Origin: Cryptosporangium aurantiacum
GTDB taxonomy: Bacteria; Actinomycetota; Actinomycetes; Mycobacteriales; Cryptosporangiaceae
NCBI RefSeq assembly: GCF_900143005.1
Contig: NZ_FRCS01000006.1
Coordinates: forward strand, 434,001 to 498,000
Direction of reading: 5' to 3'
DNA length: 64,000 nt
Below the pieces are notes generated by a model. The model worked only from the letters and a program-made list of their open reading frames with translations. It searched no databases and had not been told where the DNA came from. Position numbers and translations under genes: made by a program. Within the stretch, counting starts at the first letter, position 1. Every line of letters starts with the position of its first letter. Of the stretch, positions 19,547-62,741 are shown in pieces.

Positions 19547-19588
19547 ATGACGTGCTCCGCTGAGAGTGCCCCGGACGGTCGCGCGTGA
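19547..19588 (+). CDS. Putative 13-residue leader peptide coupled to the aldolase gene
   Basis: ATG 19547 has a strong CGAGGAGG site six bases or so upstream, whereas the aldolase GTG at 19585 has none of its own. The frame reads MTCSAESAPDGRA and its TGA overlaps the GTG of the next gene (GTGA). Ribosomes ending here would restart on the aldolase. Expression is inferred only from this geometry. Confidence 0.45.
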   Translation: MTCSAESAPDGRA

Positions 19589-20778: not shown

Positions 20779-21203
20779 TGGCCGGGCTCGCTCAGGCACT
20801 GCCGGCCGAGCACGTGCGGATCGCCACCAACCCGGACACCGAACCGTTCTGGGAGGCAGCCAAGGAGAACCGGCTCGTCGCGTGCGCGTGCGGCAGCTGC
20901 GGCGCGTTCCGGATGCCGCCCACCCCGTTCTGCCCGAGCTGCCGGTCGAAGGCGAAGAACTGGGTCGAACTCTCCGGCCGCGCAACGGTCTTCTCGTACT
21001 CGATCGTGCACGGATATCCAGGGATCAAGGACATCGTGATCGCCGCCGCCGTACTCGACCTGGAGGGCGCGCCCGGCGCCCGCCTGGTCAGCGACATCAT
21101 CGACGTCGACCCGGACGACGTCCACATCGGCCTTGGGGTGGAGGTCGTGTTCTCCCCCGTCGCCGACGGCTGGAAGCTCCCCCTGTTCAAGCCCGTCGCC
21201 TGA
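20778..21203 (+). CDS. DUF35 / OB-fold zinc-ribbon partner of the aldolase
   Basis: 141 residues. ATG 20778 overlaps the aldolase stop by one base, so the two are translationally coupled. The zinc ribbon CGSC ... CPSC lies near residues 37-56, followed by an OB-fold (GRATVFSYSIVH). In the Ltp2-ChsH2 system the DUF35 domain binds the aldolase and is needed for activity. Here it is a stand-alone protein without the MaoC domain of ChsH2. A hairpin terminator follows. Confidence 0.92.
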   Translation: MAGLAQALPAEHVRIATNPDTEPFWEAAKENRLVACACGSCGAFRMPPTPFCPSCRSKAKNWVELSGRATVFSYSIVHGYPGIKDIVIAAAVLDLEGAPGARLVSDIIDVDPDDVHIGLGVEVVFSPVADGWKLPLFKPVA

Positions 21204-42203: not shown

Positions 42204-43295
42204 TCAGTGCGGGCGGCCGGGTAGCTGGTAACCCATCGCCGTGTACGCGCGGGGAAGGGTCTCGCACCAGGCCCGTGCGCGGACCACCGGACGGTCGTCG
42301 TGTATCCGGCGGATCCCGCCGAGTTGCCACAGATAGCTGGGGTTGCGCGGCGAGGTGGTCGAGGCCGTCTCGGTCCGCACCTCCCATTCGTCGTCCCCGT
42401 GGCTCCACCGGATCCGGGCGGGCAGCCCGTCCGGCCGCCGGTCGAACTCGCTGCGCAGGCCGTGCAGCGCGGATGAACCCGACTCCGTCGCCACGTGGCC
42501 GGTACCGGTGCCGGCGCGGTTGAGGTAGAGGCTCGCGACCTCGTAGCCACCGTCGGCGTACTCGATCACGTAGAGCACCCAGTGCTCCTCCAGCCGCCGG
42601 GCGATCGGCATCTCTCGCCAGTCCAGGGCCCCGTTCGCCCAGGCCTGCTCGTAGCCGCCGACGCCGGAGACCTTCTCCCCGAGGATGGTGCCCTCCAGGA
42701 TCGAGACGACCCCGATGTAGTAGAAGGACTCGTCGGGATCCGGGTGGTACATCTGGAGGGCGGTGCCCGAGGGGTCGGACAGCCGCATGTCCAGGATGCC
42801 GCGTTCGGTCCAGTGGGCGTCGGCTCCGGGGACGGCCTCGAATCGCATGGCCCGGCTCGCCTTGCCCCGCGACGCGACGACCCACGCGTCGCCCTGGATG
42901 TCGCTGGAGGTGTAGCCGTAGAAGCTCGACCGCGCCTCGGCCACGTCCTCGGCCGGGCTTTCGCCGTCGGAGCGGGTCAGGTGCAGCCGCGGCGTCATCA
43001 TGACGTGGTTGAACCGCAGCACGTTGTAGTACAGCCCGGAGTCGCTCCGCACGATGCCGTACCACGCCTGGTAGAGCGGGTTGAGTCCGTAGGGCGGCGG
43101 CTGCAACCGGTCGAAGTCGGCCAGGGTGGGCCGGAATCCACCGCACAGCGTGACGTCACCGTAGAAGAACTTGCTCGACGACGGTGCTTCATCCGTCCGC
43201 GCCGTGCTGAGCGCCACCTGGTCGGAAAGTACGTTCGTCATCTGGCCATCCCGCAGCTCCCGGGGCGTTTCGCCCGTCGATGGTTCGTCATTCAC
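42204..43295 (-). CDS. Protein of unknown function, paralogue of 41003-42046
   Basis: 363 residues from GTG 43295, which overlaps the crotonase stop as GTGA (ATG 43241 is an alternative start). It shares with the neighbour FFYGDVTL, PYGLNPLYQAWYG, RFNHVMMTPRLHL, FYGYTSSDI, MYHPDPD, AWANGALDWREMPIARR and TSPRNPSYLW, so the two arose by duplication, yet they are in different transcription units. No signal peptide or known catalytic motif. A soluble ligand-binding barrel or an enzyme acting on a hydrophobic alcohol or alkene are possibilities; neither is shown. Confidence 0.75.
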   Translation of the reverse strand: MNDEPSTGETPRELRDGQMTNVLSDQVALSTARTDEAPSSSKFFYGDVTLCGGFRPTLADFDRLQPPPYGLNPLYQAWYGIVRSDSGLYYNVLRFNHVMMTPRLHLTRSDGESPAEDVAEARSSFYGYTSSDIQGDAWVVASRGKASRAMRFEAVPGADAHWTERGILDMRLSDPSGTALQMYHPDPDESFYYIGVVSILEGTILGEKVSGVGGYEQAWANGALDWREMPIARRLEEHWVLYVIEYADGGYEVASLYLNRAGTGTGHVATESGSSALHGLRSEFDRRPDGLPARIRWSHGDDEWEVRTETASTTSPRNPSYLWQLGGIRRIHDDRPVVRARAWCETLPRAYTAMGYQLPGRPH

Positions 43296-44184: not shown

Positions 44185-44958
44185 GTGGGGGACTACGAGA
44201 CCATCCTGGTCGAGCTCTCCGATCACATCGCCACGGTCACGCTGAACCGGCCGGAGCGGCTGAACGCCTTCGACCAGACGATGTGCGACGAGTTCAGCCG
44301 GCTCTGGGCCTGGGTACGCACCACCGACGACGTCCACGTCGTCGTGCTGCGGGCAGCCGGCGACCGCGCGTTCTGCAGCGGGGTGGACCAGACGGACGGC
44401 GGGCTGCCGAAGGAGTCAAACCCGTGGAGCCAGCTCGACCCCGGACGACAGCTGGGACCGAAGGCCAACGACGTCTGGAAGCCGGTCGTGTGCGCGGTCC
44501 ACGGCATGTGCGCCGGCGGGGCGTTCTACTGGATCAACGAAGCCGACATCGTGATCTGCTCGGCTGACGCGACGTTCTTCGATCCGCACCTCACCTACGG
44601 GATGGTCTCGGCGCTGGAGCCGATGGGGCTCTCCCGCCGGATCCCGTACGGCGAGGCGATGCGCTGGGCGCTGCTCGGCCTGGACGAGCGCATGTCGGCG
44701 ACGCGCGCCCACGGCATCGGGCTGGTCAGTGAGGTGGTGCACCGCGACGACCTACACGGCAGGGCCGCCGATATCGCCGGCAAGATCGCGGCGAAACCGG
44801 CAGCCGCCGTCCAGGGCACGGTGCGGGCGGTATGGCAGGGCTTCGAGCTGAGCCCTCGGCAGGCACAAGCGATCGGGTACTCCTTCACGCAGTTGGGCAA
44901 TCCGATCGCCCGGGTGGGCTTCCGGGACGTTCCGCGGCCACAGTGGGAGTTGCGGTGA
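44185..44958 (+). CDS. Crotonase-fold protein lacking the catalytic glutamates
   Basis: 257 residues from GTG 44185 with AAAGGCGG upstream. FCSGVDQTDG and MCAGGAFYWINEADIV keep the oxyanion hole, but the two Glu positions read Tyr (GGAFYW) and His (FFDPHLTYGMV). The DPH-TYG-LEP pattern marks a subgroup of actinobacterial EchA proteins of unclear chemistry. Start of a plus-strand operon with the aldehyde dehydrogenase (GTGA overlap) and a small protein. Confidence 0.88.
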   Translation: MGDYETILVELSDHIATVTLNRPERLNAFDQTMCDEFSRLWAWVRTTDDVHVVVLRAAGDRAFCSGVDQTDGGLPKESNPWSQLDPGRQLGPKANDVWKPVVCAVHGMCAGGAFYWINEADIVICSADATFFDPHLTYGMVSALEPMGLSRRIPYGEAMRWALLGLDERMSATRAHGIGLVSEVVHRDDLHGRAADIAGKIAAKPAAAVQGTVRAVWQGFELSPRQAQAIGYSFTQLGNPIARVGFRDVPRPQWELR

Positions 44959-46427
44959 GCGGCACGGACCTGAGCTACCGCCTCTACATCGACGGCACCT
45001 GGACCGACGCCTCGGGCACCGAGGTCACGGAGGTGCTCGATCCGGCGACCGAGGAGGTCATCGGGCGGGTCCCGCAGGCGGACGCCACCGACGTCCGGCG
45101 AGCCGTCGCCGCTGCCCGCCGCGCGTTCGACGAGGGGCCGTGGCCCCGGACGGGTCCCCGCGAGCGCGGCGCCGTGCTGCTGCGCATGGCCGAGATCATG
45201 GAGCGCCGCACGCCCGAGCTGATCGAACTGACGATGCGCGAGGCCGGCAGCACCCGGTCGCTCGCCCGCGGCATGCAGGTCGGTGTCCCGGTCGCCCACC
45301 TGCGGGACATGGTCGAACGGGTGCTGCCGTCCTTCGCCTGGGAAACCCCGTTGCCGCCCTCGGTCGGGCGCGGAATCGGCCAGGGTGTGCTGCTCCGGGA
45401 GCCGTTCGGGGTCGCCGCGCTGATCTCGGCCTACAACTTCCCGTTCTTCCTCAACGTCCTGAAGCTCGCTCCGGCGCTGGCCGCGGGCTGCACCACGGTG
45501 CTCAAGCCGGCACCGACCACGCCGCTCGAGGCTTTCGTGCTCGCGGAGATCGGCGAAGAGGCCGGGCTCCCGGCCGGAGTGCTCAACGTGGTGACCGGGG
45601 ACATCGACGCCGGCCGCGAACTCACCACGAACCCGCAGGTGGACCTGGTCAGTTTCACCGGGTCGGACCTGGTAGGCAGGCAGGTCTACGAGCAAGCGGC
45701 GCCCACCCTGAAGAAGGTCGTCCTCGAGCTCGGTGGGAAATCCGCCGCGATCATCTGCGAGGACGCGGACCTCACCCGCGCCGTGGCCGACGTGGTGGGC
45801 GGCATCACCACGCACGCGGGGCAGGGCTGCGGTCTGCTCACCCGTACGCTCGTGCACCGGTCGCGTCACGACGAGCTGATCGAGCGGGTCACCCGCACCC
45901 TCGACCGGGTGGTGGTCGGCAACCCGTTCGACGAGGGCGTGCGGATGGGTCCGCTCATCTCGGCCGCCCAGCGGGCGAAGGTGGAGCAGCTCATCCGGTG
46001 CGGCCGGGAGGAGGGCGCCCGGGTGGCCTACGGCGGTGGCCGGCCCGCCGGGCTGGACCGCGGCTTCTTCCTCGAGCCGACGCTCTTCACTGGAGTCGAC
46101 AACACGATGAGCATCGCGCGGACGGAGTTCTTCGGCCCGGTCGGTGTCGTCATCCCCTTCGACGACGACGACGAGGCGGTGCACATCGCCAACGACAGCC
46201 CGTACGGGCTCGCGGGTTCGGTGTGGGCACACGACCCCGCCCGCGCCTACGCGCTCGCCCGGCGAATCCGGACCGGCCTGATCACGATCAACGGAGGCAG
46301 CGCGCTGACTCCTTACGCCGCCTTCGGCGGTTACAAGCAGAGCGGTCTCGGACGCGAGTGGGGCGAGCACGGGCTGTCCGAGTTCCTGCAGACCAAGTCG
46401 GTCACCTGGAGCGTCGCGACCGGCTGA
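44955..46427 (+). CDS. Aldehyde dehydrogenase
   Basis: 490 residues from GTG 44955 overlapping the crotonase stop (GTGA), with GGGAG upstream. EPFGVAALISAYNFPF, SFTGSDLVGRQ, catalytic Glu in LELGGKSAA, catalytic Cys in GQGCGLLTR, and AFGGYKQSGLGREWG at the C-terminus. NAD(P)-dependent oxidation of an aldehyde to an acid (or, for some relatives, to an acyl-CoA). Coupled translation with a crotonase suggests that the aldehyde arises within the pathway. Confidence 0.93.
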   Translation: MSGTDLSYRLYIDGTWTDASGTEVTEVLDPATEEVIGRVPQADATDVRRAVAAARRAFDEGPWPRTGPRERGAVLLRMAEIMERRTPELIELTMREAGSTRSLARGMQVGVPVAHLRDMVERVLPSFAWETPLPPSVGRGIGQGVLLREPFGVAALISAYNFPFFLNVLKLAPALAAGCTTVLKPAPTTPLEAFVLAEIGEEAGLPAGVLNVVTGDIDAGRELTTNPQVDLVSFTGSDLVGRQVYEQAAPTLKKVVLELGGKSAAIICEDADLTRAVADVVGGITTHAGQGCGLLTRTLVHRSRHDELIERVTRTLDRVVVGNPFDEGVRMGPLISAAQRAKVEQLIRCGREEGARVAYGGGRPAGLDRGFFLEPTLFTGVDNTMSIARTEFFGPVGVVIPFDDDDEAVHIANDSPYGLAGSVWAHDPARAYALARRIRTGLITINGGSALTPYAAFGGYKQSGLGREWGEHGLSEFLQTKSVTWSVATG

Positions 46428-47859: not shown

Positions 47860-49011
47860 CTAGCCCGGGAAGTTGTAGAGCCGGCGGGTGTTGGTCTCGA
47901 CCATCATCCGCACCTCGTCGTCCGGCACGTCCCGGAAGGCTTGCTCGGCGCGCTTGCGACTGTGCGGCCAGTGCGAGTCGGAGTGCGGGTAGTCACACTC
48001 CCAGGTGATGGTTTCCACGCCGATCCGGTGCCGCTGCTCCACGCCGAAGTCGTCGTCGATGAAGCAGCCGTGGAAATGCTTGCGGAACAGCTCCGACGGC
48101 CGCACGCGGGAGTCGATGTTCTGGTACCAGCGGTGCTTCTCCCAGACGTAGTCCGCCCGCTCCATCAGGTAGGGGATCCAGCCGATCCCCCCTTCGGACA
48201 GCCCGAACTTCAGCTCCGGGTGCTTGTGGAGCACGGGCGAGAACAGCAGGTCCGACGCCGCGTACATGGAGTTGCAGCCGAACAGCGTGATCATCACGGC
48301 CATCGGCGCCTCGGGTGCGGTCGTCGGCGCTTGGCCGGAACTGCCGAAGTGGATCGCCAGCGGCATCCCGGTCTGGGTGGCGGCCCGGAAGACGGGGTCC
48401 CAGTGGTCGGTGTGGAAGGACGGCAGGCCGCGCGGAACCGGATTCTCCGGAAAGCCGATCGCCTTCGCCCCCTTGGCGGCCGTCCGGTGGATCTCGGCGA
48501 CGCACGCGTCGACGTCCCAGAGCGGCAGGATGACAAGGGGAAGCAGCCGGTCCGGCGCGGCGGCGCACCACTCGTCGAGCACGTAGTCGTTGTAGGCGCG
48601 GACGCACGCGAGGCGCAGTTCCTCCGGACCGCGATGCAGGAACACCGTGCCCGCGAATCCGGGGAAGGACGGGAAGCACAACGCGCCCCACACCCCGTCG
48701 AGATCCATGTCGGCCAGCCGGGCTTTGGGGTCGTAACAGCCCGGGATCATCTCGTCGAAGCGCACCGGATCCACGCCGAACTGGTCCGGGCTCTTGCCCG
48801 CCACCGCGTTCAGTCCGATGGACGGATAACGCTGACCGGCGTAGTGCCAGACCTGCGCCGGTGGTGCGGACGGGTCTTCGACCGAGGGCTCCTCGACGAT
48901 TCGCGGACCCTCCGCGAGCCACTTGCGTGGCAGCCGGTCGGCCCAGACGCGCGGGTGCTCGACGAGATGGTCGTCGGTGGAGATCAGCTTCATGTCCGGC
49001 TGCAGCGGCAC
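47860..49011 (-). CDS. Metal-dependent amidohydrolase (Amidohydro_2 type)
   Basis: 383 residues from GTG 49011 with GAGGAGG upstream. Metal-binding landmarks: STDDHLVEHP (DxH) at the N-terminus, LAIHFGSSG for the barrel His, and WECDYPHSDS for the late Asp. Same family as the left-block protein at 24270, which also has the LADMDLDGV-like motif (LRMQDLDQEG). It sits between the P450 (9-base gap) and the binding-fold protein. It could open a ring after oxidation, or hydrolyse an ester or amide. Confidence 0.87.
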   Translation of the reverse strand: MPLQPDMKLISTDDHLVEHPRVWADRLPRKWLAEGPRIVEEPSVEDPSAPPAQVWHYAGQRYPSIGLNAVAGKSPDQFGVDPVRFDEMIPGCYDPKARLADMDLDGVWGALCFPSFPGFAGTVFLHRGPEELRLACVRAYNDYVLDEWCAAAPDRLLPLVILPLWDVDACVAEIHRTAAKGAKAIGFPENPVPRGLPSFHTDHWDPVFRAATQTGMPLAIHFGSSGQAPTTAPEAPMAVMITLFGCNSMYAASDLLFSPVLHKHPELKFGLSEGGIGWIPYLMERADYVWEKHRWYQNIDSRVRPSELFRKHFHGCFIDDDFGVEQRHRIGVETITWECDYPHSDSHWPHSRKRAEQAFRDVPDDEVRMMVETNTRRLYNFPG

Positions 49012-50352: not shown

Positions 50353-50378
50353 ACACTGACTGTACACTCCGTCAGTGT
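50353..50378. promoter_or_regulatory. Right-block motif in a divergent promoter
   Basis: ACACTGAC (50353-50360) and GTCAGTGT (50371-50378) form a perfect inverted repeat around TGTACACTCC. The minus strand of 50362-50375 reads CTGACGGAGTGTAC, the same 14-mer as at 42076. TACACT (50363-50368) can be a -10 for the thioesterase, whose GTG follows 9 bases on without a ribosome site. Confidence 0.58.
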
Positions 50379-51243
50379 GACGTTCCATGGCATCGGGGAG
50401 CGACTCCCCACGCTCGTCCCGGACGGCCCCGCACACCTCGGGACGGTGCCGCCGTTCTGGGCCTTCGCCGGACGCGCGTTCGGCGGATTCAGCTCCGCGG
50501 CGGCCCTCACCGGCGCCGCCGCGTTCGCACCATCGGGCTCGGTCGCGCTCGCCGCCCGGATCTCGTTCGTCTCCCCCACGCTGGTCGGACCGTTCCGGAT
50601 CGAGGCGACCGACGTCCGGCTCGGCCGTTCCTCGAGCGCGGTCAACGTCCGGCTCACCCAGGACGGCCAGACGCGCGTGACCCTCGCGTCGTGGTTCGTC
50701 CGGCCGGACCTGCTCCCCGCTCCGGAGCCCACCCCGCCGCCGCGGGCCGACCCGTCCGCGTGCCCCGGCACCTGGCGGGACACGAAGAACGCCTTCGACA
50801 GCGCCTTCGAGCGACGGACGATCCACTTCCCCGCGACGTCCGACGCGTTCGCACTCCACGGGCCGCGGGTAGAGCTGTGGATCCGACGATCGGGCGGCCC
50901 GCCTCCGGACGCGGTGAGTCGCCAGGCGGACGATCTGATGCTGTTCGACGCTCACTTGGCCGAGACCGTCATCGAGGGCCTGCACGCGGATCGCACCCGC
51001 TCGTTCAGCATCGATCTGTCGGTGACCTGGGCGGGCGGCCCGTGGATCCGGTCCGCCACACCGGAGGGCGCGGACGACGGAGGTGACGCCTGGCGACGCC
51101 TGACCACCGTCGGGTCGGCCGCCGGCCGCATCGGAACCTCCGGCGGAACCCTCACCGACGTCTCCGGCTCCACGATCGCGACGGCGACGCAACTCGTCGC
51201 CGTCGGTCCCCCGCGCTCGGACGAAGGAGGACGGAAGCGATGA
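50377..51243 (+). CDS. Acyl-CoA thioesterase family protein (TesB-like)
   Basis: 288 residues from GTG 50377. No ribosome site is visible and a -10 lies just ahead, so the mRNA may be leaderless. FWAFAGRAFGGFSSAAALTGA carries the FGG turn; the second hotdog begins near residue 150 (LHGPRVELWIRR, later FSIDLSVTWAGGPW). Same family as 36088. Presumably an acyl-CoA hydrolase. First gene of an operon with the CoA transferase (ATGA overlap) and a two-gene acyl-CoA dehydrogenase. Confidence 0.82.
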   Translation: MTFHGIGERLPTLVPDGPAHLGTVPPFWAFAGRAFGGFSSAAALTGAAAFAPSGSVALAARISFVSPTLVGPFRIEATDVRLGRSSSAVNVRLTQDGQTRVTLASWFVRPDLLPAPEPTPPPRADPSACPGTWRDTKNAFDSAFERRTIHFPATSDAFALHGPRVELWIRRSGGPPPDAVSRQADDLMLFDAHLAETVIEGLHADRTRSFSIDLSVTWAGGPWIRSATPEGADDGGDAWRRLTTVGSAAGRIGTSGGTLTDVSGSTIATATQLVAVGPPRSDEGGRKR

Positions 51244-52451
51244 CGAAGGTGTTCGAGGGCATCCGGGTACTCGAGCTCGCGACCTGGGGATACATCCCGT
51301 CCGCCGGGGTAGCGCTGGCGGATTGGGGCGCCGAGGTCATCAAGATCGAGCATCCGGCCCACGGAGATCCGATGCGCGGCCTGGTGCTCTCCGGATTGGC
51401 CGGCGCCGACGTCGACTTCATGTTCCAGCTGATGAGCCGGGGCAAACGCAGCGTCGGGCTGGACCTCACCCGACCCGAGGCACGGGAGGTGCTGCTCGCA
51501 CTGGCGGCCACCGTCGACGTCTTCCTGACCAACTACCTGCCGCCGGTGCGCCGCAAGCTCGGCGTCGACGTGGACGACCTGCGGGCGGCGAATCCCCGGC
51601 TCATCTATGCCAAGGGCAGCGGGCTGGGTCCCCAGGGCGCGGAGGCGGATGTCGGTGGCTTCGACTTCGCCTCCTACTGGGCACGCGGTGGACTGGCCTT
51701 CGTCTCCGACACGGGCCTCGAGAACGGGCCACCGCCGATGCCGGGTGGCGCGTTCGGCGATCTGCAGGCCGGTCTGTACACCGCCGGTGGGGTGGCGGGG
51801 GCGCTGTTCCACCGGGAGCGCACCGGACAGGCACCGGTCGTCGACACCAGCCTCCTCGGCGCGGCCGTCTGGGCGACCGCGCCCCACATCGCGGCGTCCG
51901 GCCTGTACGGGATCGACGCGGCTCCCCGGCCGCAGCACGATCGGCCGCCCAACGTGCTCTCCAACACCTACGCCACGGCGGACGGCAGGCACGTCACTCT
52001 CGTGATGCTCGAATCCGACCGGTTCTGGGCACCGCTGATGGAGGTCGTCGGAAGGCGCGACCTGGCCGACGACCCCCGGTTCGCCGACGCCGCCGCCCGT
52101 CGGGAGAACAACACCGCCTGCGTCCGCGAGCTGGAGGCGATCTTCGCCGCCCGTCCGCTGGACGAGTGGCGGGACGTCCTGAGCAGGCAACGCGGAGTCT
52201 GGTCGGTCGTCCAGTCCCCACGGGAAGTCGCGGCCGACCCGCAGGTCCGGGCCAACGGCTACACCCGCACGCTGCCGCTCGACGGCGGACGCACGGTCGA
52301 CGTCGTCACCCCGCCGATCCAGTTCGACGGCGCCCGGCCCGACCCCGTCCCCGCCCCCGCGCTCGGCGCCGACACGGAGTTGGTGCTGCTGGAATCGGGC
52401 CTGGACTGGGACCGGATCGCCGCGCTCAAGGAGGCCGGGGCGATCACCTGA
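51240..52451 (+). CDS. CaiB/BaiF family (class III) CoA transferase
   Basis: 403 residues; ATG 51240 overlaps the thioesterase stop. Family landmarks: GIRVLELATWGYIPSAGVALADWGAEVIKIEHP, GKRSVGLDL, DVFLTNYLPPVRRKLGVD, and the catalytic Asp in GGAFGDLQAGLYTAGG. It moves CoA from one acyl-CoA to another acid without ATP. It probably supplies the acyl-CoA for the dehydrogenase pair that follows, and may recycle CoA from a pathway product. CaiB-type enzymes can also act as epimerases of 2-methylacyl-CoA (Amacr); GDP-type spacing does not rule this out. Confidence 0.92.
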   Translation: MTKVFEGIRVLELATWGYIPSAGVALADWGAEVIKIEHPAHGDPMRGLVLSGLAGADVDFMFQLMSRGKRSVGLDLTRPEAREVLLALAATVDVFLTNYLPPVRRKLGVDVDDLRAANPRLIYAKGSGLGPQGAEADVGGFDFASYWARGGLAFVSDTGLENGPPPMPGGAFGDLQAGLYTAGGVAGALFHRERTGQAPVVDTSLLGAAVWATAPHIAASGLYGIDAAPRPQHDRPPNVLSNTYATADGRHVTLVMLESDRFWAPLMEVVGRRDLADDPRFADAAARRENNTACVRELEAIFAARPLDEWRDVLSRQRGVWSVVQSPREVAADPQVRANGYTRTLPLDGGRTVDVVTPPIQFDGARPDPVPAPALGADTELVLLESGLDWDRIAALKEAGAIT

Positions 52452-52497: not shown

Positions 52498-53673
52498 GTG
52501 GACCTCGCGCTGACCGCGGCGGAACGCGACTTCCGGGAACAGGTGCGCTCCTGGCTCGCCGAACACGTACCCAAACAGGCGCGCCCGCTCGACCTGGCCG
52601 AGCGCCGGGAGTACGACCTGGCCTGGCAGCGAACCCAGTACGACGGCGGCTGGGCGGGCATCGCGTGGCCCACCGAGTACGGCGGGCGCGGGCTCGATCT
52701 GCTGGAGCAGATGATCTGGTACGAGGAGTACGCCCGTGCCGAGGCACCACCGCTGGGCACCTGCTTCGTGGGGCTCGCCCATGCCGGGCCCACGCTGATC
52801 AGCCGCGCGACGGCTGCGCAGAAGGCCGCGTACCTGCCTCCGATCCTGCGCGGCGAACACATCTGGTGCCAGGGATTCAGCGAGCCCGGCGCCGGATCCG
52901 ACCTCGCCTCTCTCTCGACCCGCGCCGTCGTCGACGGAGACGACCTCGTCGTCAACGGCACCAAGATCTGGACCAGCTACGCGAGCGTCGCCGACTATCA
53001 GGAGCTGCTGGTCCGGACCGACCCGCAGGCGCCGAAACACCGCGGCATCAGCTGGGTCGTGTGCGACATGCGGTCCCCCGGAATCACCATCCGTCCCATC
53101 CCGACGCTCAACGGCGAACTGGATTTCTGCGAAGTCTTCTACGACGACGTCCGGATTCCGCTGGCGAACGTGGTGGGCGAGATCAACGCGGGCTGGTCGG
53201 TGGCGATGTCGACGCTGTCGTTCGAGCGCGGCACCGCGTTCATGGCCGAGCAGATCGAGCTCGCCCGGCAAGTCGAGGACTTGCTCGACGCGGCCCGGGT
53301 GCTTCCCGGCCCGGACGGCGCACGCCCCGCGATCTCCGACGACGGCATCGCGCGCGAGCTGGCCAGGGTCCGCGCCGAAGTCGCGTCGCTACGGGCGATG
53401 ACGTACCTCGGCATCTCCCGGATCGCGCGCAGCGGAGCGCCGGGTCCGGAGGGCTCGATGCTGCGGTACCACTACAGCACCGTGTGGCAGCGCGTCTACC
53501 GGCTGGCGATGGACGTCGTCGGCGACGGCGCCGTGCTCGGCGGTCGCGACGGCGACGGCCGGTGGACCCATGCCTACCTCAACAGCCTGCGTTCGACCAT
53601 CGCCGCGGGCACCAAGGACATCCAGCGCACGATCATCGCGGAGCGGGTCCTCGGCCTGCCCCGCGCGAGCTGA
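52498..53673 (+). CDS. Acyl-CoA dehydrogenase, catalytic-type subunit of a two-gene enzyme
   Basis: 391 residues from GTG 52498 with GGAGGAG upstream. Landmarks: WPTEYGGRGLD, WCQGFSEPGAGSDLASL, GTKIWTSYA and the C-terminal IAAGTKDIQRTIIAERVLGLPR. It resembles the left-block subunit at 10895, and its partner gene (53684) follows after 10 bases. Together they should form a heteromeric ChsE-like dehydrogenase. The order here is catalytic-type first, opposite to the left-block pair and to the fused protein. Confidence 0.92.
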   Translation: MDLALTAAERDFREQVRSWLAEHVPKQARPLDLAERREYDLAWQRTQYDGGWAGIAWPTEYGGRGLDLLEQMIWYEEYARAEAPPLGTCFVGLAHAGPTLISRATAAQKAAYLPPILRGEHIWCQGFSEPGAGSDLASLSTRAVVDGDDLVVNGTKIWTSYASVADYQELLVRTDPQAPKHRGISWVVCDMRSPGITIRPIPTLNGELDFCEVFYDDVRIPLANVVGEINAGWSVAMSTLSFERGTAFMAEQIELARQVEDLLDAARVLPGPDGARPAISDDGIARELARVRAEVASLRAMTYLGISRIARSGAPGPEGSMLRYHYSTVWQRVYRLAMDVVGDGAVLGGRDGDGRWTHAYLNSLRSTIAAGTKDIQRTIIAERVLGLPRAS

Positions 53674-53683
53674 GGGAGCCCCG

Positions 53684-54718
53684 ATGGATCTGCTTCCCGA
53701 CGTCGAAGAACGACAGATCGTCGACGCCATCGGCGCGTTCCTCGACGATCGCCTGCCGCTCGATCGGGTGCGGGCGCACAACGACGAGCCCGGTGACGCT
53801 CGTCCCGTCAGCCGAGCCGCGTGGGCGGGGTTCGCCGAGCTGGGCCTGTTCGGGCTGGGCCTGAGCGAGGAGGCAGGCGGCGCAGGCTACGGGATCGCCG
53901 AAGAGCTGCTGGTGGCCCGCGAGCTCGGGCGGCGCCTCACTCCCGGCCCGGTCGTATCCACGGTGCTGGCAGCACACCTCGCGGCGGCGGCGGGGAACAC
54001 CGCCCTGGTGGCGGAGCTGACGGGCGACGACGCCCCGGCCGCCCTCGCGGAGCCCTTCCGGGATCCGCGCGCTCGCGGCGGCGCCGCGGTGAGCGGCCGG
54101 TTCCTGGTGTCCGACCGGCCCGGCGCCCGCTACGTGCTGGCCGTCGTGGAGTCCGACTTCGCGCTGCTGCGCGCTGCGGACCTGCCTCCGACGACCCTGG
54201 TGCAGGGGCTCGACCGCGGTGTGCGGCTGACGCTGGCCGATCTCGACGGCGCCCGGCCGGTGGTGCACGGCCGCTATCCGGCACTGCGGTGGCGTGCGGA
54301 AGTACTGACCGCGGCGACGTCGTGCGGCGTCGCCGAGGCCGCACGGGACCGCTCGGTGGCGTACGCCGGCACCCGCCGTCAGTTCGGCCGGCCGATCGGC
54401 GCGTTCCAAGCCGTCGCCCACCGGTGCGCCGAGATGGGCGTTCGCTGCGAGTCCGCGACGGCGCAGACCATCTATGCCGGGCTCGTGCTGGCTGAAGGAC
54501 GGGAGGACGCCGCGTTCCAGGCCGCCGCCGCCAAGCTGGTCGCCACCGCCGCCGCGGTCGACAACGCCGCGGACGACGTGCAGAACCACGGCGGAATGGG
54601 ATTCACCGACGAGAGCGGCGCACACCTGTTCCTGCGTCGTGCCCGGCTGCTGGAGCACCGGTTCGGAGCCGGCCCGGTGCACGCCGGACGGCTGCTGACC
54701 GAGCCGGCTCCCGGCTGA
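53684..54718 (+). CDS. Acyl-CoA dehydrogenase, partner subunit
   Basis: 344 residues from ATG 53684 with GAGGGAG upstream. RRQFGRPIGAFQAVAHRCAEM and VQNHGGMGFTDESGAHLFLRRARLLE identify it; the QIHGG motif is QNHGG here, and the middle domain is short and lacks the SEPxAGSD loop, as in the partner at 12100. Ends the 50377-54718 operon, facing the SDR at 54732 with a 13-base gap and no obvious terminator. Confidence 0.9.
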   Translation: MDLLPDVEERQIVDAIGAFLDDRLPLDRVRAHNDEPGDARPVSRAAWAGFAELGLFGLGLSEEAGGAGYGIAEELLVARELGRRLTPGPVVSTVLAAHLAAAAGNTALVAELTGDDAPAALAEPFRDPRARGGAAVSGRFLVSDRPGARYVLAVVESDFALLRAADLPPTTLVQGLDRGVRLTLADLDGARPVVHGRYPALRWRAEVLTAATSCGVAEAARDRSVAYAGTRRQFGRPIGAFQAVAHRCAEMGVRCESATAQTIYAGLVLAEGREDAAFQAAAAKLVATAAAVDNAADDVQNHGGMGFTDESGAHLFLRRARLLEHRFGAGPVHAGRLLTEPAPG

Positions 54719-55670: not shown

Positions 55671-56669
55671 ATGACCCGCAGCGATCGGCGCCCTGTCACC
55701 CGATCCGTCGGCTCCTTCGGTTTCCAGCCGGTCGTCGGGCTGGCCGCCCCGGACCCCGAGCGAGCGATTCGCAACGAGACCACGGTCATGGGGCTTCCCC
55801 TCGTCGGGCACTACCTCTATGGGGCGTTCGTCACCGAGGACGGATATCGCGCCGCTCCGCAGCGCCATATCCGCGACGAGGTCGCGGTCAGCCTCTTCTA
55901 CTACGAAGCCGACAAGCCGGATGCCGTGCTGGCCCACCGCGGATCGGCGAACCGTGCCCACCGCGGCATCTGCGAGGTCGGGCGCGACGCGGACGGCCGC
56001 TACGGCTGGTGGCATCCCGAGCCCGACCCGCGCTTCGTGTTCGTTGAGGACACCACATCGGCGCGGTGGCGCGACCGCGGCTTCGTCGAGGCCGAGGGCA
56101 CGCTGATCGGCGAGGTGATGCAGTACGCCATTCCGGACGCCGAGGAACCGCTGGTCTACACCTCACGGGTCTACCGCTGCCCCGAGGCCGTCGTGGACGG
56201 CCGGCCGGCCCGCGGTTACTTCTTCCACGACGAGGTCTACCTGCGCCAGGGGCACTCCTGGGTGGCCAGCCGTTATCTGCACGGTCTGGAGAGCGCGTGG
56301 ACCGCGTTCGTCACCGAGTTCGAGGACGGCGCCGTCCACGCCGGACACCTGATCTGGAGCAACGAGAACTTCCGCCTCGCGCTCATCCAGCGCACCGACG
56401 GTCCGCCGGTTCTGCAGACGGCCATCCCGGGTGAGGTGGAGCTGGACGATCAGGGCTACTACGCCCACGCACGGCACGACCTCGGCGACGACGGCGTCTG
56501 GGTCTGGCGACCGATCCACCCCGACGGCGGCCGGATGCCCCCCTCCCCGTTCGAGGACGGTCCCCGGTGGCGTGAGGGCCTGGTGACCCTCGAGGACGAG
56601 AAGCGCGCGGTCGTCGTCAACAACGCGTGGAGCGAGTCCTACCCGAAGTTCTTCGACCCGACCTCCTGA
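55671..56669 (+). CDS. Protein of unknown function, possibly distantly related to 41003 and 42204
   Basis: 332 residues from ATG 55671 with AGGAGG upstream. Soluble, beta-rich, with many Trp, Tyr and His. A central block YFFHDEVYLRQ ... SRYLHGLESAWTAFVTEF then EDGAVHAGHLIW has the same order of features as the Trp-rich block of the 41003/42204 proteins, but overall similarity is low and I call it only a possible relative. No catalytic motif recognised. It heads the operon with an aldehyde dehydrogenase and an alcohol dehydrogenase, so it may act on an alcohol or aldehyde stage. Confidence 0.7.
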   Translation: MTRSDRRPVTRSVGSFGFQPVVGLAAPDPERAIRNETTVMGLPLVGHYLYGAFVTEDGYRAAPQRHIRDEVAVSLFYYEADKPDAVLAHRGSANRAHRGICEVGRDADGRYGWWHPEPDPRFVFVEDTTSARWRDRGFVEAEGTLIGEVMQYAIPDAEEPLVYTSRVYRCPEAVVDGRPARGYFFHDEVYLRQGHSWVASRYLHGLESAWTAFVTEFEDGAVHAGHLIWSNENFRLALIQRTDGPPVLQTAIPGEVELDDQGYYAHARHDLGDDGVWVWRPIHPDGGRMPPSPFEDGPRWREGLVTLEDEKRAVVVNNAWSESYPKFFDPTS

Positions 56670-56722: not shown

Positions 56723-58195
56723 ATGACCGCTACCCTGTCCCGCTCCGCCGCCGCCGAACGCTTCCGGGACCGGCCGGGCCGGCTGCTCATCGACGGTGAG
56801 CTCGTCGACGCCGCCCGCGGCGAGCGGTTCACCGTCATCGATCCCACCACCGAGGAGGAACTCGGCCAGGTCGCCAGGGCCGGCACCGAGGACGTCGACC
56901 GCGCCGTCACGGCCGCCCGGGCCGCCTTCGCCGACCGCCGGTGGAGCGGCCTGCCACGGGCCCGCCGCGAGGCGGTTCTCCACCGGCTGGCCGATCTGGT
57001 GGAAGGCGCCACTGCCGAGCTGGCCGCCCTCGACGTGCTCGAGAACGGCATGCCGCTCGCGTTCGCGCAGTACGAGATCGGCTCGGCCGTGGCGATGATC
57101 CGGTACTTCGCCGGGTGGCCGACGAAGGTGGAGAGCACCGTGCTCGCCACCGACGACCCGATCTTCGGTTACACCCGCCGGGAGCCGGTCGGCGTGTGCG
57201 CGGGCATCGCCCCGTGGAACGCTCCGGTGACCAATCCACTGCTGAAGATCGTCCCGGCACTGGCCTGCGGCAACACCGTGATCGCCAAGCCGGCTGAGCA
57301 GACACCCCTGACTGCCGTCCGGATCGCCGAACTGTGCCTGGAGGCCGGGATACCCCCGGGGGTGGTCAACGTCCTCCAGGGACCGGGCGACGTGGGCGCC
57401 GCGCTCGTCGCGCACCCCGGCGTCGACAAGATCGCCTTCACCGGCTCCACGGCGACCGGCAAGCTGATCCAGCGCGAGGCGGCCGCGACGTTGAAGCGGG
57501 TGACCCTGGAGCTGGGCGGGAAGAGCCCCAACATCCTCTTCGCCGACGCCGACCTCGAGGCGGCGATCCCCGGCGCGCTGATGGCCGTCTTCGCGAACTC
57601 CGGGCAGGTCTGCTTCGCCGGAACCCGGCTGTTCGTGGAACGCCCCATCCACGACGCCGTCGTCGAGGCGCTCGCGGCGGGCTCGGCGCAGATGGTGGTC
57701 GGCGACGGGTTCGATCCGGCGACGCAGCTCGGTCCGCTCGTGTCCGCCGCGCAGTTCGACCGCGTGCGGGGCTACATCGAGGCCGGTGTCGCGGGCGGGG
57801 CCACCCTCGCCCACGGCGGCGACCGGGTCGGCGACCGGGGGTACTTCGTGCGGCCGACCGTCTTCGCCGGCGCCGACAACACGATGCGCATCGCCCGCGA
57901 GGAGATCTTCGGCCCCGTCGTCACCGTGATCCCGTTCGACGACGAGTCCGAGGTCCTGCGACTGGCCGACGACACCAACTTCGGTCTCGGCGCGGGTGTC
58001 TGGACACGGGACCTCTCGCGTGCCCACCGGGTCGCGGCGTCGCTGCGGGCCGGAGTGGTCTGGGTCAACACCTACGGGGACCTCTCCGCCACCGTTCCGT
58101 TCGGTGGGTTCAAGCAGTCGGGGATCGGGCGGGAGTTCGGCACCGCCGCGCTCGACGCCTACACCGAGCACAAGAGCGTCCTGGTCAAGCTGTGA
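56723..58195 (+). CDS. Aldehyde dehydrogenase
   Basis: 490 residues from ATG 56723 with AAAGGAG four bases upstream. EPVGVCAGIAPWNAPV, AFTGSTATGK, catalytic Glu in LELGGKSPN, Cys in NSGQVCFAGTR, and PFGGFKQSGIGREFG near the C-terminus. A standard NAD-dependent ALDH. The next gene encodes the NDMA/mycofactocin-type alcohol dehydrogenase, so this pair can take an alcohol to an acid, ready for the CoA ligase at 59386. Confidence 0.94.
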   Translation: MTATLSRSAAAERFRDRPGRLLIDGELVDAARGERFTVIDPTTEEELGQVARAGTEDVDRAVTAARAAFADRRWSGLPRARREAVLHRLADLVEGATAELAALDVLENGMPLAFAQYEIGSAVAMIRYFAGWPTKVESTVLATDDPIFGYTRREPVGVCAGIAPWNAPVTNPLLKIVPALACGNTVIAKPAEQTPLTAVRIAELCLEAGIPPGVVNVLQGPGDVGAALVAHPGVDKIAFTGSTATGKLIQREAAATLKRVTLELGGKSPNILFADADLEAAIPGALMAVFANSGQVCFAGTRLFVERPIHDAVVEALAAGSAQMVVGDGFDPATQLGPLVSAAQFDRVRGYIEAGVAGGATLAHGGDRVGDRGYFVRPTVFAGADNTMRIAREEIFGPVVTVIPFDDESEVLRLADDTNFGLGAGVWTRDLSRAHRVAASLRAGVVWVNTYGDLSATVPFGGFKQSGIGREFGTAALDAYTEHKSVLVKL

Positions 58196-58217: not shown

Positions 58218-59327
58218 ATGAAGGTCGACGCCGCCGTCCTGTACGGCGTGGGTGAGCCGTACAAGATCGAGGAAATCGAGCTGGACGCGCCCCGCGAGCG
58301 CGAGGTGCTGGTCGAGCTGACCGCCTCCGGCCTGTGCCACTCCGACGACCACCTGGTCACCGGCGACGTCCCGCTGCCCGGACCGATGGTCGCCGGCCAC
58401 GAGGGTGCCGGAGTGGTGGTCGACGTCGGGTCGCAGGTGACCCGGGTGAAGCAGGGTGACCACGTCATCCTGCACCCGGTACCCAGCTGCGGGCAGTGCC
58501 GCTGGTGTGTGACCGGCCGGGCCAACCTGTGCGATCTGGGCGCGTTCGCGCTCACCGGATACGCCCCGGACGGCACCTACCGGCGCCACCTCAAGGGCGA
58601 GGACATCGGCGCCTTCTGCCAGCTGGGCACGTTCTCGCCCTACACGACGGTCTCGGAGACCCAGGTCGTCGCGATCGACGCGGACGTGCCGCTCGAGGTC
58701 GCGGCGCTGATCGGCTGCGGCGTGACGACCGGCGTCGGCGCCGCGACGAAGGTCGGCCGGGTACAGCCGGGCGACGTGGTGGTCGTGATCGGAGTGGGCG
58801 GTGTCGGCACCAGCGCGGTGCAGGGCGCCCGGATCGCGGGGGCGTCGACGATCGTGGCCGTGGAGCCGGGTGAGTACCGGCGACGGCGCGCCGCGGAGTT
58901 CGGTGCCACGCACTCCGCCGCGAGCGTCGAGGACGCCACCGGCCTGGTCCGCGACCTGACGCACGGTGTGATGGCGGACGTCGTCCTCATCACCGTGGGC
59001 GTGATGCACGGCGAGTTGCTCGGCCAGGCGCTCGCTCTCACCTCCAAGGGTGGCCGGTGCGTGATCACCTCGGTCGCCCCGCTCGCCGAGACGACCGCGG
59101 CGGTGTCACTGTTCGATTTCGCGATGTCGAACAAGCGCCTTCTCGGGCACGTCTACGGAGAGGCGAACCCGCAGGACGACTTCCGGCGGCTGGTGGATCT
59201 CTACCGCAGCGGCGCGCTGCGGCTGGACGAGATGATCACCCAGGAGTTCACGCTCGCGCAGATCAACGAGGGGTTCGCGGCCATGCACGCCGGCACCACG
59301 GTCCGCGGAGCGATTCGCTACCGCTGA
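58218..59327 (+). CDS. Zinc alcohol dehydrogenase, NDMA-dependent / mycofactocin-associated type
   Basis: 369 residues from ATG 58218 with GAGGGAG upstream. Catalytic zinc ligands in GLCHSDDH and GHEGAG; structural zinc loop CGQCRWCVTGRANLC; then GTYRRHLKGEDIGAFCQLGTFSPYTTV; NAD fold VIGVGGVGTSA. The structural-zinc loop and the block after it match the NDMA-dependent alcohol dehydrogenases (Rxyl_3153-type, TIGR03989), which hold NAD tightly and are reoxidised through mycofactocin. Oxidises a primary or secondary alcohol. Third mycofactocin-type enzyme in the window. Confidence 0.92.
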   Translation: MKVDAAVLYGVGEPYKIEEIELDAPREREVLVELTASGLCHSDDHLVTGDVPLPGPMVAGHEGAGVVVDVGSQVTRVKQGDHVILHPVPSCGQCRWCVTGRANLCDLGAFALTGYAPDGTYRRHLKGEDIGAFCQLGTFSPYTTVSETQVVAIDADVPLEVAALIGCGVTTGVGAATKVGRVQPGDVVVVIGVGGVGTSAVQGARIAGASTIVAVEPGEYRRRRAAEFGATHSAASVEDATGLVRDLTHGVMADVVLITVGVMHGELLGQALALTSKGGRCVITSVAPLAETTAAVSLFDFAMSNKRLLGHVYGEANPQDDFRRLVDLYRSGALRLDEMITQEFTLAQINEGFAAMHAGTTVRGAIRYR

Positions 59328-59385: not shown

Positions 59386-60921
59386 TCAGGCGCGGCGTAG
59401 CGTGATCCCGGCCGCCTCCCGGTCCCAGGTGGCCTCCGACACTCCCCGCTTACGCAGGTCGGTCTTGCGTACCTTCATCGTCGGCGTGCGGGGCAGCTCG
59501 TCGACCAGTTCGAAGTACCGGGGCACCGCGAAGTGCGCCAGCCGCTGCGACAGGAACGCCACCAGCTCGGGAAGGTCGATCGTGGCGTCCTCGCCCAGCA
59601 GGAGATAGGCCATGACTTCGTCCTCGCCGAACTCCGCCGGCACCGGGACGCACGCGGCTTCCCTGACCGCGGGATGGCGGACGATCTCCCGCTCGACCTC
59701 GAGGCTGGAGATGTTCTCGCCCCGCCGGCGGATCGCGTCTTTGATCCGGTCGACGAAGTGCACTTCGCCCCGCTCGTCCAGCCGCACCTGGTCGCCGGTG
59801 TGGAACCAGCCGTTCCGCCAGGCCCTGGCCGTCTCCTCCGGCTTGTTCAGGTACTCATGGGTGATCACCCACGGATCCTGAGCTCGAACGATCAGCTCGC
59901 CGGGCTCACCCGTGGGAACCGGGATGTCGTGCTCGTCGACGACCCGTAACTCGAACCCGGCCGACACCGGGCCGCACGAGGTGGGATCTGTGATCCGGCC
60001 GCGGGTGACGACCGGCGGCGGCAACTCGGTCATCGCGTGGACTTGGCAGAGCTCCTCGATCCCGTACCGCTGGAGGAAGCCGTCGACGTCTGCGGGCAGC
60101 GGCACCACGATCATCCGGCGGATCGGGTTGTCGGCGTCGGAGGGGGTGGGGGGCAACGACGCGAGGTACCCCGCCATGGGGCCGAGCAGGAACGCCATCG
60201 TGGTGCCGTAGCGGCGGGCGATGTCGAGGAAGCGCTTGCCCTCGAAGTGACTGCAGAGGACGAAGTTGCCCCGGAGCGCCCACACCGCGGTGAGCGGGAC
60301 CGTGCCGGAGATGTGGAACATCGGCATCACCGACAGATAGGTGTCGCCGGGCTCCAACCGGTCTTCCCACGGCGTACCGGTCGCGCGGACTTGGGTGTAG
60401 GTCGTGAGCACGCCCTTGGAGTCTCCGGTGGTACCGGACGTGTAGTTGACGGCTGCCAGGTCCCACGCCTCCAGCGGGGCGGTCAGCGCCGGCGGCTCGA
60501 CGGAGCCTTCCCGCAGCACCGCGGGGTCGACGAGGAGCTGGGGTGCGCCGTCGATCTCCGCGAACCGCTCTGCCAGTGCCCCCGCGCTGATGATGCGGAC
60601 GGGCGCGGTGTCCCGCACGAGGTACGCCAGCAGCGGGCCTCGGTAGGAGACGTTGACCGGGACGACGACGGCGCCCAGGAACGACACGCCGAGCCACGCC
60701 CGGATCCAGTCGGACCCGTTGGGCAGCATGATCATCACACGGTCGCCCCGGGCGACACCGAGCGTCCGGAGCGCGTTGGCCGCCCGGTACCCCTCGTCGC
60801 GAGCCGAGGCGCAGGTCCAGCTCGTGCCCTCCGGCTCCACGATCAAACACTCACGGTCAGGCGTCTCGAGCGCGTTGCGTTCGACCACGTCCCGCAGGAC
60901 GACGTCGTCACGTCGATGCAT
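59386..60921 (-). CDS. Acyl-CoA synthetase (AMP-forming, CaiC/FadD-type)
   Basis: 511 residues from ATG 60921 with GAAGGA six bases upstream; a longer frame back to 61029 overlaps the promoter. NYTSGTTGDSKGVLTTY P-loop, WFHTGDQVRLDERGE, DRIKDAIRRRGENISS hinge and PTMKVRKTDLRKRG with the catalytic Lys. Closely related to 39435 (same hinge and C-terminal pattern), so the right block has two ligases of one subfamily, likely for successive or alternative acids. Confidence 0.93.
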   Translation of the reverse strand: MHRRDDVVLRDVVERNALETPDRECLIVEPEGTSWTCASARDEGYRAANALRTLGVARGDRVMIMLPNGSDWIRAWLGVSFLGAVVVPVNVSYRGPLLAYLVRDTAPVRIISAGALAERFAEIDGAPQLLVDPAVLREGSVEPPALTAPLEAWDLAAVNYTSGTTGDSKGVLTTYTQVRATGTPWEDRLEPGDTYLSVMPMFHISGTVPLTAVWALRGNFVLCSHFEGKRFLDIARRYGTTMAFLLGPMAGYLASLPPTPSDADNPIRRMIVVPLPADVDGFLQRYGIEELCQVHAMTELPPPVVTRGRITDPTSCGPVSAGFELRVVDEHDIPVPTGEPGELIVRAQDPWVITHEYLNKPEETARAWRNGWFHTGDQVRLDERGEVHFVDRIKDAIRRRGENISSLEVEREIVRHPAVREAACVPVPAEFGEDEVMAYLLLGEDATIDLPELVAFLSQRLAHFAVPRYFELVDELPRTPTMKVRKTDLRKRGVSEATWDREAAGITLRRA

Positions 60922-60968
60922 GTCAGTTCCTTCAAGTCTCGCCCGGGCCACGCTGCCGGGAGGATTCA

Positions 60969-61003
60969 CTGACGGCGCGATATTGACTGATAGAGTGTTC
61001 AAT
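60969..61003. promoter_or_regulatory. Divergent promoter with a right-block half-site and a left-block-like site
   Basis: CTGACGGCGCGATA (60969-60982) matches the right-block 14-mer in its left half exactly as at 42187. TAGAGTGTTCAAT (60991-61003) resembles the left-block motif. It is the only place where both may coexist; the second could be chance. Confidence 0.4.
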
Positions 61004-61061
61004 GTAGCGTAGGTCACCTCCCCCAACAAGGAGGAGTTGCCGGCCGGGTGAGGGAGACAGC

Positions 61062-62741
61062 GTGACCGGAGACGATCGCCCCCTGCCGCAGCCGACCCTG
61101 GCGACCGCCGCCTTCTGGTCGTCCGGCGCCGACGGCACGTTGCGCATGTCGCGTTGTTCGGGCTGCCGGCGCTGGTTCCATCCGCCGATGCCGTGCTGTC
61201 CCACGTGCGGCAGCACCGAGATCGGGCTCGAGCCGACGAGCGGGCGCGGCACGGTGGTGGCGGTGACCGTCACCCGCCAAGCCTGGCTACGGTCCTTCCC
61301 TCCCCCGTTCGCGATCGCGATCGTGGCGATCGAGGAGTCCCCGGAGGCCCGCCTGACGACGAACGTGGTCGGCTGTCCGCCGGACGACGTCCGCATCGGC
61401 ATGCGGGTGCGCGTACGGTTCGACCATCGCCCGTCCCCGGAGGGGGACGTCTGGATCCCCGACTTCGAACCGGACCCGGACACCGAGCGCGAGCAGGGGC
61501 CCGGGCCGCTGCCCGAACCCCGTGACCTCACCCCCGCGCTGCGACGCACCACCGCCGCCGGCCGGGCGACCCGCTTCGAGGACCGGGTGGCGCTGACCGG
61601 GGTGGGCCAGTCCCGGGTGGGCCGGCGGCTCATGGTGGACCCGCTCGCGCTCACCGTCGAGGCTTGCCGGGCCGCGGTCGCCGACGCCGGTCTGACCCTC
61701 GCTGATATCGACGGCCTGTCCACCTACCCCGGCCCGTCCGCCCACATCGGGATGACCGAGGGGGGCGTCACGCCGGTATCGCAGGCGCTGGGGCTGGCCC
61801 CGGTGTGGGTCAACGGCGCCGGGGAGGTTCCCGGGCAGTCGGGATCGATCATCACCGCGATGCTCGCGGTCGCCTCCGGGCTCTGCCGGCACGTGCTCTG
61901 CTTCCGCACGGTGTGGGAGTCGTCGCTCACCGCGCTCCAGCGGTCCGGTCGATGGGCGGAGCCGCAGGCACGGGCGACCGGGCTGTCGGAGTGGCGGCTG
62001 CCCTTCGGCGCCTCGTCGGCCGCCCAGTGGATCGGGATGCACGCGTCGCACTACCTGCACCGTTACGCCGTCGGGCGGGAGGTCTTCGGACACATCGCGG
62101 TGACCGCGCGGGCCGGCGCCGCCCGGAATCCCGAGGCGGTCTACCGGGAACCGATCACGCTCGACGACTACTTCGCGGCGCGGCCGGTGTCGACACCGTT
62201 CGGACTCTACGACTGTGACGTCCCGGTGGACGGTGCCACCGCGGTGGTCGTGTCCGCGGTCGAGACCGCGGCGGATCTACCCACGCGTCCCGTCCTGGTG
62301 GAGGCCGTCGGCACGCAGATCCTCGAGCGGCTGTCCTGGGACCAGGACACCCTCGACCACCTCCCCCAGTCCCAGGGGCCGGCCGCCCACCTGTGGACCC
62401 GCACCGACCTCCGGCCGACCGACGTCGACGTGGCGCTGCTCTACGACGGGTTCACCTTCAACGCCGTGTCGTGGCTCGAAGGACTCGGGTTCTGCGGACC
62501 CGGCGAGGCCACGGACTTCGTGGCGGGCGGCAAGACCATCGCGCCGGACGGAGCACTACCGCTCAACCCGCACGGCGGCCAGTTGTCCGCCGGCAGGCTG
62601 CACGGTTACGGGTTCGTCCGGGAGGCGATGCTCCAGCTACGGGGGCAGGCGGGCGCCCGTCAGGTGCCGGATGCCCGGGTCGCCGTGGTGACCAACGGCG
62701 GCGGGGTGCCGTCGTGCGCGTTGCTGCTGCGATCCGCGTGA
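61062..62741 (+). CDS. Natural fusion of DUF35 zinc-ribbon/OB domain and Ltp2-type thiolase-like aldolase
   Basis: 559 residues from GTG 61062 with GAGGGAG upstream. Residues 1-135: zinc ribbon CSGC ... CPTC (about 32-50) and an OB-fold (GRGTVVAVTVTR). Then a Pro/acidic linker, and from about 175 a thiolase fold (VALTGVGQSRVGRR, LNPHGGQLSAGRLHG, VVTNGGG). The thiolase Cys position reads EVPGQSGSI and lacks Cys, like the left-block protein at 19585. So both domains of the left-block two-gene aldolase are in one chain here, in reverse order. Probably cleaves a 3-hydroxyacyl-CoA by retro-aldol reaction to a carbonyl compound and a short acyl-CoA. Confidence 0.9.
   Translation: MTGDDRPLPQPTLATAAFWSSGADGTLRMSRCSGCRRWFHPPMPCCPTCGSTEIGLEPTSGRGTVVAVTVTRQAWLRSFPPPFAIAIVAIEESPEARLTTNVVGCPPDDVRIGMRVRVRFDHRPSPEGDVWIPDFEPDPDTEREQGPGPLPEPRDLTPALRRTTAAGRATRFEDRVALTGVGQSRVGRRLMVDPLALTVEACRAAVADAGLTLADIDGLSTYPGPSAHIGMTEGGVTPVSQALGLAPVWVNGAGEVPGQSGSIITAMLAVASGLCRHVLCFRTVWESSLTALQRSGRWAEPQARATGLSEWRLPFGASSAAQWIGMHASHYLHRYAVGREVFGHIAVTARAGAARNPEAVYREPITLDDYFAARPVSTPFGLYDCDVPVDGATAVVVSAVETAADLPTRPVLVEAVGTQILERLSWDQDTLDHLPQSQGPAAHLWTRTDLRPTDVDVALLYDGFTFNAVSWLEGLGFCGPGEATDFVAGGKTIAPDGALPLNPHGGQLSAGRLHGYGFVREAMLQLRGQAGARQVPDARVAVVTNGGGVPSCALLLRSA

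Follow-up and report, generated by a model that had tools for sequence, protein, structure and literature searches.

The window analysed here, a stretch of 64,000 nucleotides of the Cryptosporangium aurantiacum genome, encodes on its plus strand a 559-aa protein that joins a DUF35 zinc-ribbon/OB domain to a thiolase-like domain (61062-62741 including the stop codon; coding 61062-62738). We predict, with a probability of about 0.58, that this fusion is a DUF35-dependent acyl-CoA retro-aldolase with an arginine-based enolate site. Interest centres on the active site, in which the catalytic base of the studied aldolases of this fold is kept and both of their known proton donors are gone; the joining itself is already known. 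Fusions of DUF35 homologues to members of the thiolase superfamily were reported in 2010 (PMC2954200), and therefore a DUF35-thiolase fusion as such is not new. Since just one of the residue pair needed by its studied relatives is retained, the protein is probably a third type of enzyme, as judged from its residues.

Domain architecture of the fusion and of the left-block pair

The gene starts with GTG, with GGTGAGGGAG a short way upstream. Residues 1-137 (61062-61472) make up the DUF35 part, with a C4 zinc ribbon (C32-x2-C35-x10-C46-x2-C49) and an OB fold, recognised by the Pfam models zf-ChsH2 (residues 19-53, 1.3e-9) and OB_ChsH2_C (residues 59-121, 9.1e-16), both over cut-off. The four ribbon cysteines are invariant across 27 fused proteins, and their spacing is that of the canonical C4 ribbon as given in section 6 of PMC12329534. 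A linker (residues 138-171; 61473-61574), which measures 25-34 residues in the 27 fusions and often contains PGPLP, leads to the thiolase-fold part (residues 172-559; 61575-62738), which lacks the nucleophilic Cys and is identified by Pfam (Thiolase_C_1 at residues 446-551, 2.8e-33, over cut-off) as well as by sequence and fold matches. The best solved sequence relatives of the two parts are the two chains of one complex, namely, Ltp2 of Thermomonospora curvata (TcLtp2, 6ok1_A; residues 176-556, 2.1e-58) and ChsH2(DUF35) (6ok1_B; residues 16-137, 1.4e-16). The single-chain AlphaFold model, for which 27 aligned fusions were the input, has a mean pLDDT of 80.9 and a pTM of 0.85, with weak stretches that include residues 159-168 in the linker, 419-438 and 508-510, the last adjoining Arg512. 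Foldseek ranks 6ok1_A first for this model; VIA-align, with matches covering the thiolase part only (residues 170-559), places 6ok1_C first (Z 41.3, rmsd 2.6, 369 aligned), followed by 4u4e (Z 39.2) and then 9myr_A (Z 37.8), with 34% identity in the fold match to TcLtp2. The preliminary description was thus right in the coordinates and domain calls of the fusion and in relating both domains to the Ltp2-ChsH2(DUF35) aldolase, a homology borne out by the sequence matches and, for the thiolase part, also by the fold.

Fused relatives with 63-76% identity were confirmed in 15 cases on genome contigs of Pseudonocardia, Amycolatopsis, Streptomyces, Nocardia, Actinomadura, Nocardioides and a Streptosporangiales MAG. 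All 15 span both domains in one ORF, so that the architecture is not a chance product.

The left block of the window encodes, as had been described, the same two kinds of parts separately and in the reverse order, as a 397-aa thiolase-like protein (19585-20778, plus strand; Thiolase_C_1, 9.3e-37) and a stand-alone DUF35 protein of 141 aa (20778-21203, plus strand; OB_ChsH2_C, 3.7e-13; zf-ChsH2, 1.2e-12), the stop of the first gene and the start of the second overlapping as TGATG. These proteins match the TcLtp2 chain (1.2e-71) and the ChsH2(DUF35) chain (2.1e-18), respectively. The headline comparison of the preliminary description, in which this pair figured as a split version of the fusion, is nevertheless wrong in detail: the two enzymes are 36% identical, fall into different well-supported clades and carry different active-site residues, on which grounds the pair was rejected as a split form of the fusion.

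Active site and phylogeny of the YDG/Arg class

According to PMC12329534, Tyr294 of TcLtp2 is the base, Tyr344 the acid, and His296 part of the oxyanion hole, whereas Sal of Comamonas testosteroni (CtSal) employs Tyr302 and Cys304, with Gln352 at the place of Tyr344 and Gly for the nucleophilic Cys; the base Tyr is essential in both enzymes (sections 9 and 11 of the same source). Alignment shows that the fusion keeps the base as Tyr461, within Tyr461-Asp462-Gly463 (62442-62450; TcLtp2 Tyr294-Asp295-His296), but has Gly463 in place of the oxyanion-hole His296 and reads YDGF, neither YDHF nor the YDCY of CtSal. The acid Tyr344 is replaced by Arg512, within Arg512-x-His514 (62595-62603; TcLtp2 Tyr344 and His346). 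The position of the nucleophile of degradative and SCP2-type thiolases, located by alignment with a Cys-bearing paralogue from the same genome, is occupied by Gly258 (61833-61835). The designation of the domain as Cys-less holds for this position alone: cysteines occur elsewhere in the protein, among them Cys385 and Cys478, which are invariant in 27 fusions. The left protein shares the LLYD Tyr with the fusion, as noted in the preliminary description; what was overlooked there is the second catalytic residue of TcLtp2, which the left protein retains as Tyr349 and for which the fusion has Arg512. With both catalytic tyrosines (Tyr298 and Tyr349) and His300, the left enzyme is, by its sequence, of the Ltp2 type; the residues at these sites agree with the Ltp2 scheme in the left protein and with neither of the known schemes in the fusion. 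Catalysis by the fusion in the manner of Ltp2 is doubtful because Tyr344 and His296 are both replaced.

We aligned the thiolase-like proteins that cover at least 300 profile positions in 73 loci, together with TcLtp2 and CtSal (77 rows). Tyr-Asp-Gly occupies positions 294-296 (TcLtp2 numbering) in 66 of the 77 rows, a proportion that is not a census because most rows had been collected for their similarity to the fusion. Position 344 is Arg in all 66 and position 346 is His in 65, whereas Arg344 occurs in none of the 11 rows outside this YDG class. Both the fused rows (YDGF and Arg in 43/43, His in 42/43) and their unfused kin (YDG and Arg in 23/23) follow the pattern. Across the class, the nucleophile position holds Gly in 59 rows, Ala in 5, Asn in 1 and a gap in 1, while Tyr461, Asp462, Arg512, Glu521 and Gln534 are conserved in 66/66 rows and His514 in 65/66. 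Residues conserved in the class and rare outside it include Asp386, Gln428, Thr448, Trp471 and Arg512; residues invariant in the fusions and rare in the unfused kin include Glu233, Thr430, His433, His443 and Asn467.

In a tree built with the motif columns left out, a single branch separates all 43 fused rows from the rest (100/100; recovered in 100% of 200 bootstrap trees), and the resulting clade is nested within the YDG class (100/96 for its 66 rows). The fusion is conserved and of single origin among the sampled rows, no independent fusions being seen, and the combination of Gly296 and Arg344 represents a single inherited state rather than a repeated co-change, as it maps to one branch. The left protein groups with an 81%-identical paralogue and then with TcLtp2 and the other Ltp2-like protein of the genome (99/95). 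The deep joins of the tree are unsure because several long branches meet there. The Sphingobium V4 match, which tblastn covers in one piece, was rejected as a fusion because it resolved into separate ORFs in an ORF scan; its translation in one frame contained several stops, that frame not being the coding one. Gene order does not serve to mark the class, given three YDG-class loci scored as thiolase-then-DUF35 (L038, L069 and L070).

The claim of a direct and obligate complex is supported as to a probably direct association of DUF35 with the thiolase-like domain, the two parts lying in one chain, but not as to obligacy: in 4 of the 66 class rows (L068, L073, L078 and L079) no DUF35 was found within 400 nt on the same strand, so that the partner is not always adjacent and may lie elsewhere. 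Three of these are plasmid genes (L078, 2486-3679; L073, 2483-3667; L079, 2486-3661).

Paralogues, distribution and gene neighbourhood

The 9.58-Mb genome of C. aurantiacum contains 24 OB_ChsH2_C matches, all over cut-off, and encodes three fusions and four DUF35-then-thiolase pairs, that is, pairs in the order of the fusion. In their thiolase parts these four share 49-53% identity with the fusion, and they are nearer unfused counterparts than the left pair; their junctions overlap as ATGA or GTGA (4/4 read), which fits 1:1 partners. Among 26 aligned thiolase-like proteins of the genome, nine have YDG with Arg (three fused, six unfused), three YDH with Tyr and one YDCY; several of the remaining 13 bear a nucleophilic Cys. 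One gene scores 458.9 bits with PRK07937, whose cut-off is 419; judging by the length of the model and the order of the genes, we take it to be Ltp4 and its neighbour Ltp3. Neither has YDG or Arg, so that, if both genes are rightly named, Ltp3 and Ltp4 do not hold this site in this genome. Many DUF35/thiolase-like pairs reside on contig C3 (L018-L020, L024, L101, L102, L105-L107), some as near-duplicates (C3:336208 and C3:554685; C3:357064 and C3:543695).

At a threshold of 1e-100, full-length fused matches were found in 7 of 119 genomes sampled from the phylum, and at 1e-95 in 18 of 150 sampled from the order, thresholds that would miss weaker fusions. One carrier of a fused gene is S. fulvoviolaceus NRRL B-2870, a laboratory Streptomyces. 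Among 146 plasmid records, 62 have a single place that spans 80% or more of the fusion query, although such places may join neighbouring genes. Unfused genes of the YDG class are present on plasmids of Sphingopyxis, Caulobacter, Massilia and Sphingomonas; on a Sphingopyxis plasmid, one unfused pair of the class (L049, 3715-6300) adjoins genes for a 2-hydroxyacyl-CoA dehydratase and an activase.

Divergent from the fusion lies a gene for an AMP-binding acyl-CoA ligase (59386-61029, minus strand; Pfam), preceded on the plus strand by genes for an NDMA-dependent alcohol dehydrogenase (58218-59327; TIGR03989, over cut-off), a likely aldehyde dehydrogenase (56723-58195; named by its sequence cluster with window 44955-46424, Pfam Aldedh), an acyl-CoA dehydrogenase pair (52498-53673 and 53684-54718), a family III CoA-transferase (51240-52451) and a 4HBT_3 hotdog protein (50377-51243) that is 48% identical to the product of a gene beside an Amycolatopsis fusion. 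A cytochrome P450 (49021-50325) and an Amidohydro_2 protein with relatives beside several fused genes (47860-49011) are encoded on the minus strand, and an SDR is also found among the genes around the fusion. Such a neighbourhood would fit the degradation, via CoA thioesters, of a compound that is oxidised, branched or cyclic. Over 18 fused loci (the window, counted over all 64 kb, and L001-L017), an SDR cluster recurs in 12, the CoA-transferase (cluster 4) in 9, acyl-CoA dehydrogenase in 9 and Amidohydro_2 in 6. In Pseudonocardia pini, relatives of the window proteins 53684 (73%) and 54735 (84%) adjoin the fusion, and in the Amycolatopsis locus (L002) the fusion is accompanied by relatives of the ligase (50%), the substrate-binding protein (58%) and the hotdog protein of the window. 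No recognised MaoC hydratase was found beside the window fusion; the hotdog protein has one loose match only to D-x-[NF]-x-x-H, which we take to be the hydratase motif.

Amidohydro_2 or amidohydrolase-family proteins are repeatedly found near fused genes (window 47860-49011, L008, L013, L015, L016, L017 and the plasmid loci L044 and L045), in many cases immediately next to them. A protein of about 700 aa (2197-4296, minus strand) contains two acyl-CoA dehydrogenase stretches in one chain, against the adjacent pair 52498/53684 of the right block, which is the reverse of the DUF35/thiolase pattern. Three proteins of 332-347 aa beside catabolic genes (55671-56666, 41006-42046 and 42207-43217) have no Pfam match at 1e-3.

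Predicted reaction and relation to known systems

Most likely, the fusion would cleave a 3-hydroxyacyl-CoA by a retro-aldol reaction, yielding a ketone or aldehyde and a shorter acyl-CoA, at a point in the pathway where ordinary beta-oxidation cannot pass a branched or ring carbon. Tyr461 is the likely base acting on the beta-hydroxyl. The proton donors of TcLtp2 (Tyr344) and CtSal (Cys304) are both absent from every fusion examined; we infer that the thioester enolate is instead stabilised by Arg512, which would occupy the room created by the His296-to-Gly and Tyr344-to-Arg changes, with the proton perhaps coming from water or His514. The DUF35 part would be a built-in equivalent of the ChsH2 or Shy DUF35 partner, bracing and shaping the acyl-binding cleft; a DUF35 domain is described as indispensable for aldolase activity in PMC12502768.

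It is rather unlikely that Tyr461 and Arg512 instead serve a different acyl-CoA reaction, such as aldol- or Claisen-type bond formation, decarboxylation or attack on a beta-diketone. Thiolase-like proteins do vary, TbSLP weakly decarboxylating malonyl-CoA (PMC12329534), and the Amidohydro_2 proteins near fusions (6/18 loci and plasmid L044 and L045) lie outside the Ltp2 pathway as described; however, the window cluster looks catabolic (ligase, acyl-CoA dehydrogenase pair, CoA-transferase), and the base Tyr of both characterised aldolases is invariant. We regard as improbable an ordinary Ltp2-type aldolase in one chain, a counterpart of the left pair with the same catalytic residues: the domains, the best solved match to Ltp2-ChsH2(DUF35) and the common LLYD Tyr agree with it, but Arg512 and Gly463 replace Tyr344 and His296 in 43/43 fusions, and it is the left protein, 36% identical to the fusion, that belongs to the TcLtp2 clade (99/95). 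Equally improbable is a non-catalytic scaffold or CoA-binding subunit, by analogy with PhlA, described as inactive (PMC2954200), which would accord with the missing nucleophile and the absence of the two known proton donors but not with the strict retention of Tyr461, Asp462, Arg512, Glu521, Gln534 and His514, unlike a dead site.

Beyond the retro-aldolase predicted here, the YDG/Arg class as a whole, fused and unfused, might be a third catalytic solution for DUF35-dependent cleavage of acyl-CoA C-C bonds, one in which Arg replaces the Tyr or Cys donor and which extends across catabolic clusters of actinobacteria and proteobacteria, no characterised member having been found; we put this forward tentatively, at slightly less than even odds. 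The parts of the open-licence literature searched yielded no description of the class. The two dissected aldolases of the thiolase fold use different proton donors and the class has neither, so that a small set of point mutants could show directly what retro-aldol cleavage on this fold requires; as the protein is a single chain, no partner should have to be co-expressed. Database entries call such proteins 'OB-fold domain-containing protein' or 'thiolase family protein', a naming in need of correction, as thiolase chemistry is not expected of proteins that lack the nucleophilic Cys. For a soil-type actinobacterium, the fusion would be a one-piece form of a carbon-chain-cutting enzyme that normally comes in two pieces.

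With its DUF35 domain fused, the protein belongs to the broad group of DUF35-dependent thiolase-like enzymes, defined by a fused or adjacent DUF35. The 2010 fusions (section 3.4 of PMC2954200) join the same two families; we found no fused member named and no analysis of the active site there. IpfDE of the ibuprofen pathway, described as a thiolase (PMC9195938), was considered as a possible characterised member of the class and compared with the fusion by description only. Ltp3 and Ltp4 are, like the fusion, thiolase-like, being lipid-transfer proteins of sterol catabolism, but the putative pair of this genome differs in its site. An aldolase with a stand-alone DUF35 partner, Atf1-ChsH4 of Mycolicibacterium neoaurum, encoded in one operon, is described in PMC10398937; by that description, not by sequence, it resembles the left pair, and it differs from the fusion in its separate genes. 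Sal-Shy(DUF35) of C. testosteroni (PDB 9MYR) is similarly DUF35-partnered, with the base Tyr, Gly at the nucleophile position and Gln in place of Tyr344, but has Cys304 of YDCY where the fusion has Gly, a partner with a MaoC domain, and a C3H1 zinc site that the invariant C-x2-C-x10-C-x2-C of the 27 fusions does not match. Ltp2-ChsH2(DUF35) of T. curvata (PDB 6OK1) is like the fusion in both domains, the missing nucleophilic Cys, the base Tyr and the C4 ribbon; it differs in its two chains, in the attachment of the ChsH2 DUF35 to a MaoC domain, in its separate clade and in having His296 and the acid Tyr344 where the fusion has Gly and Arg.
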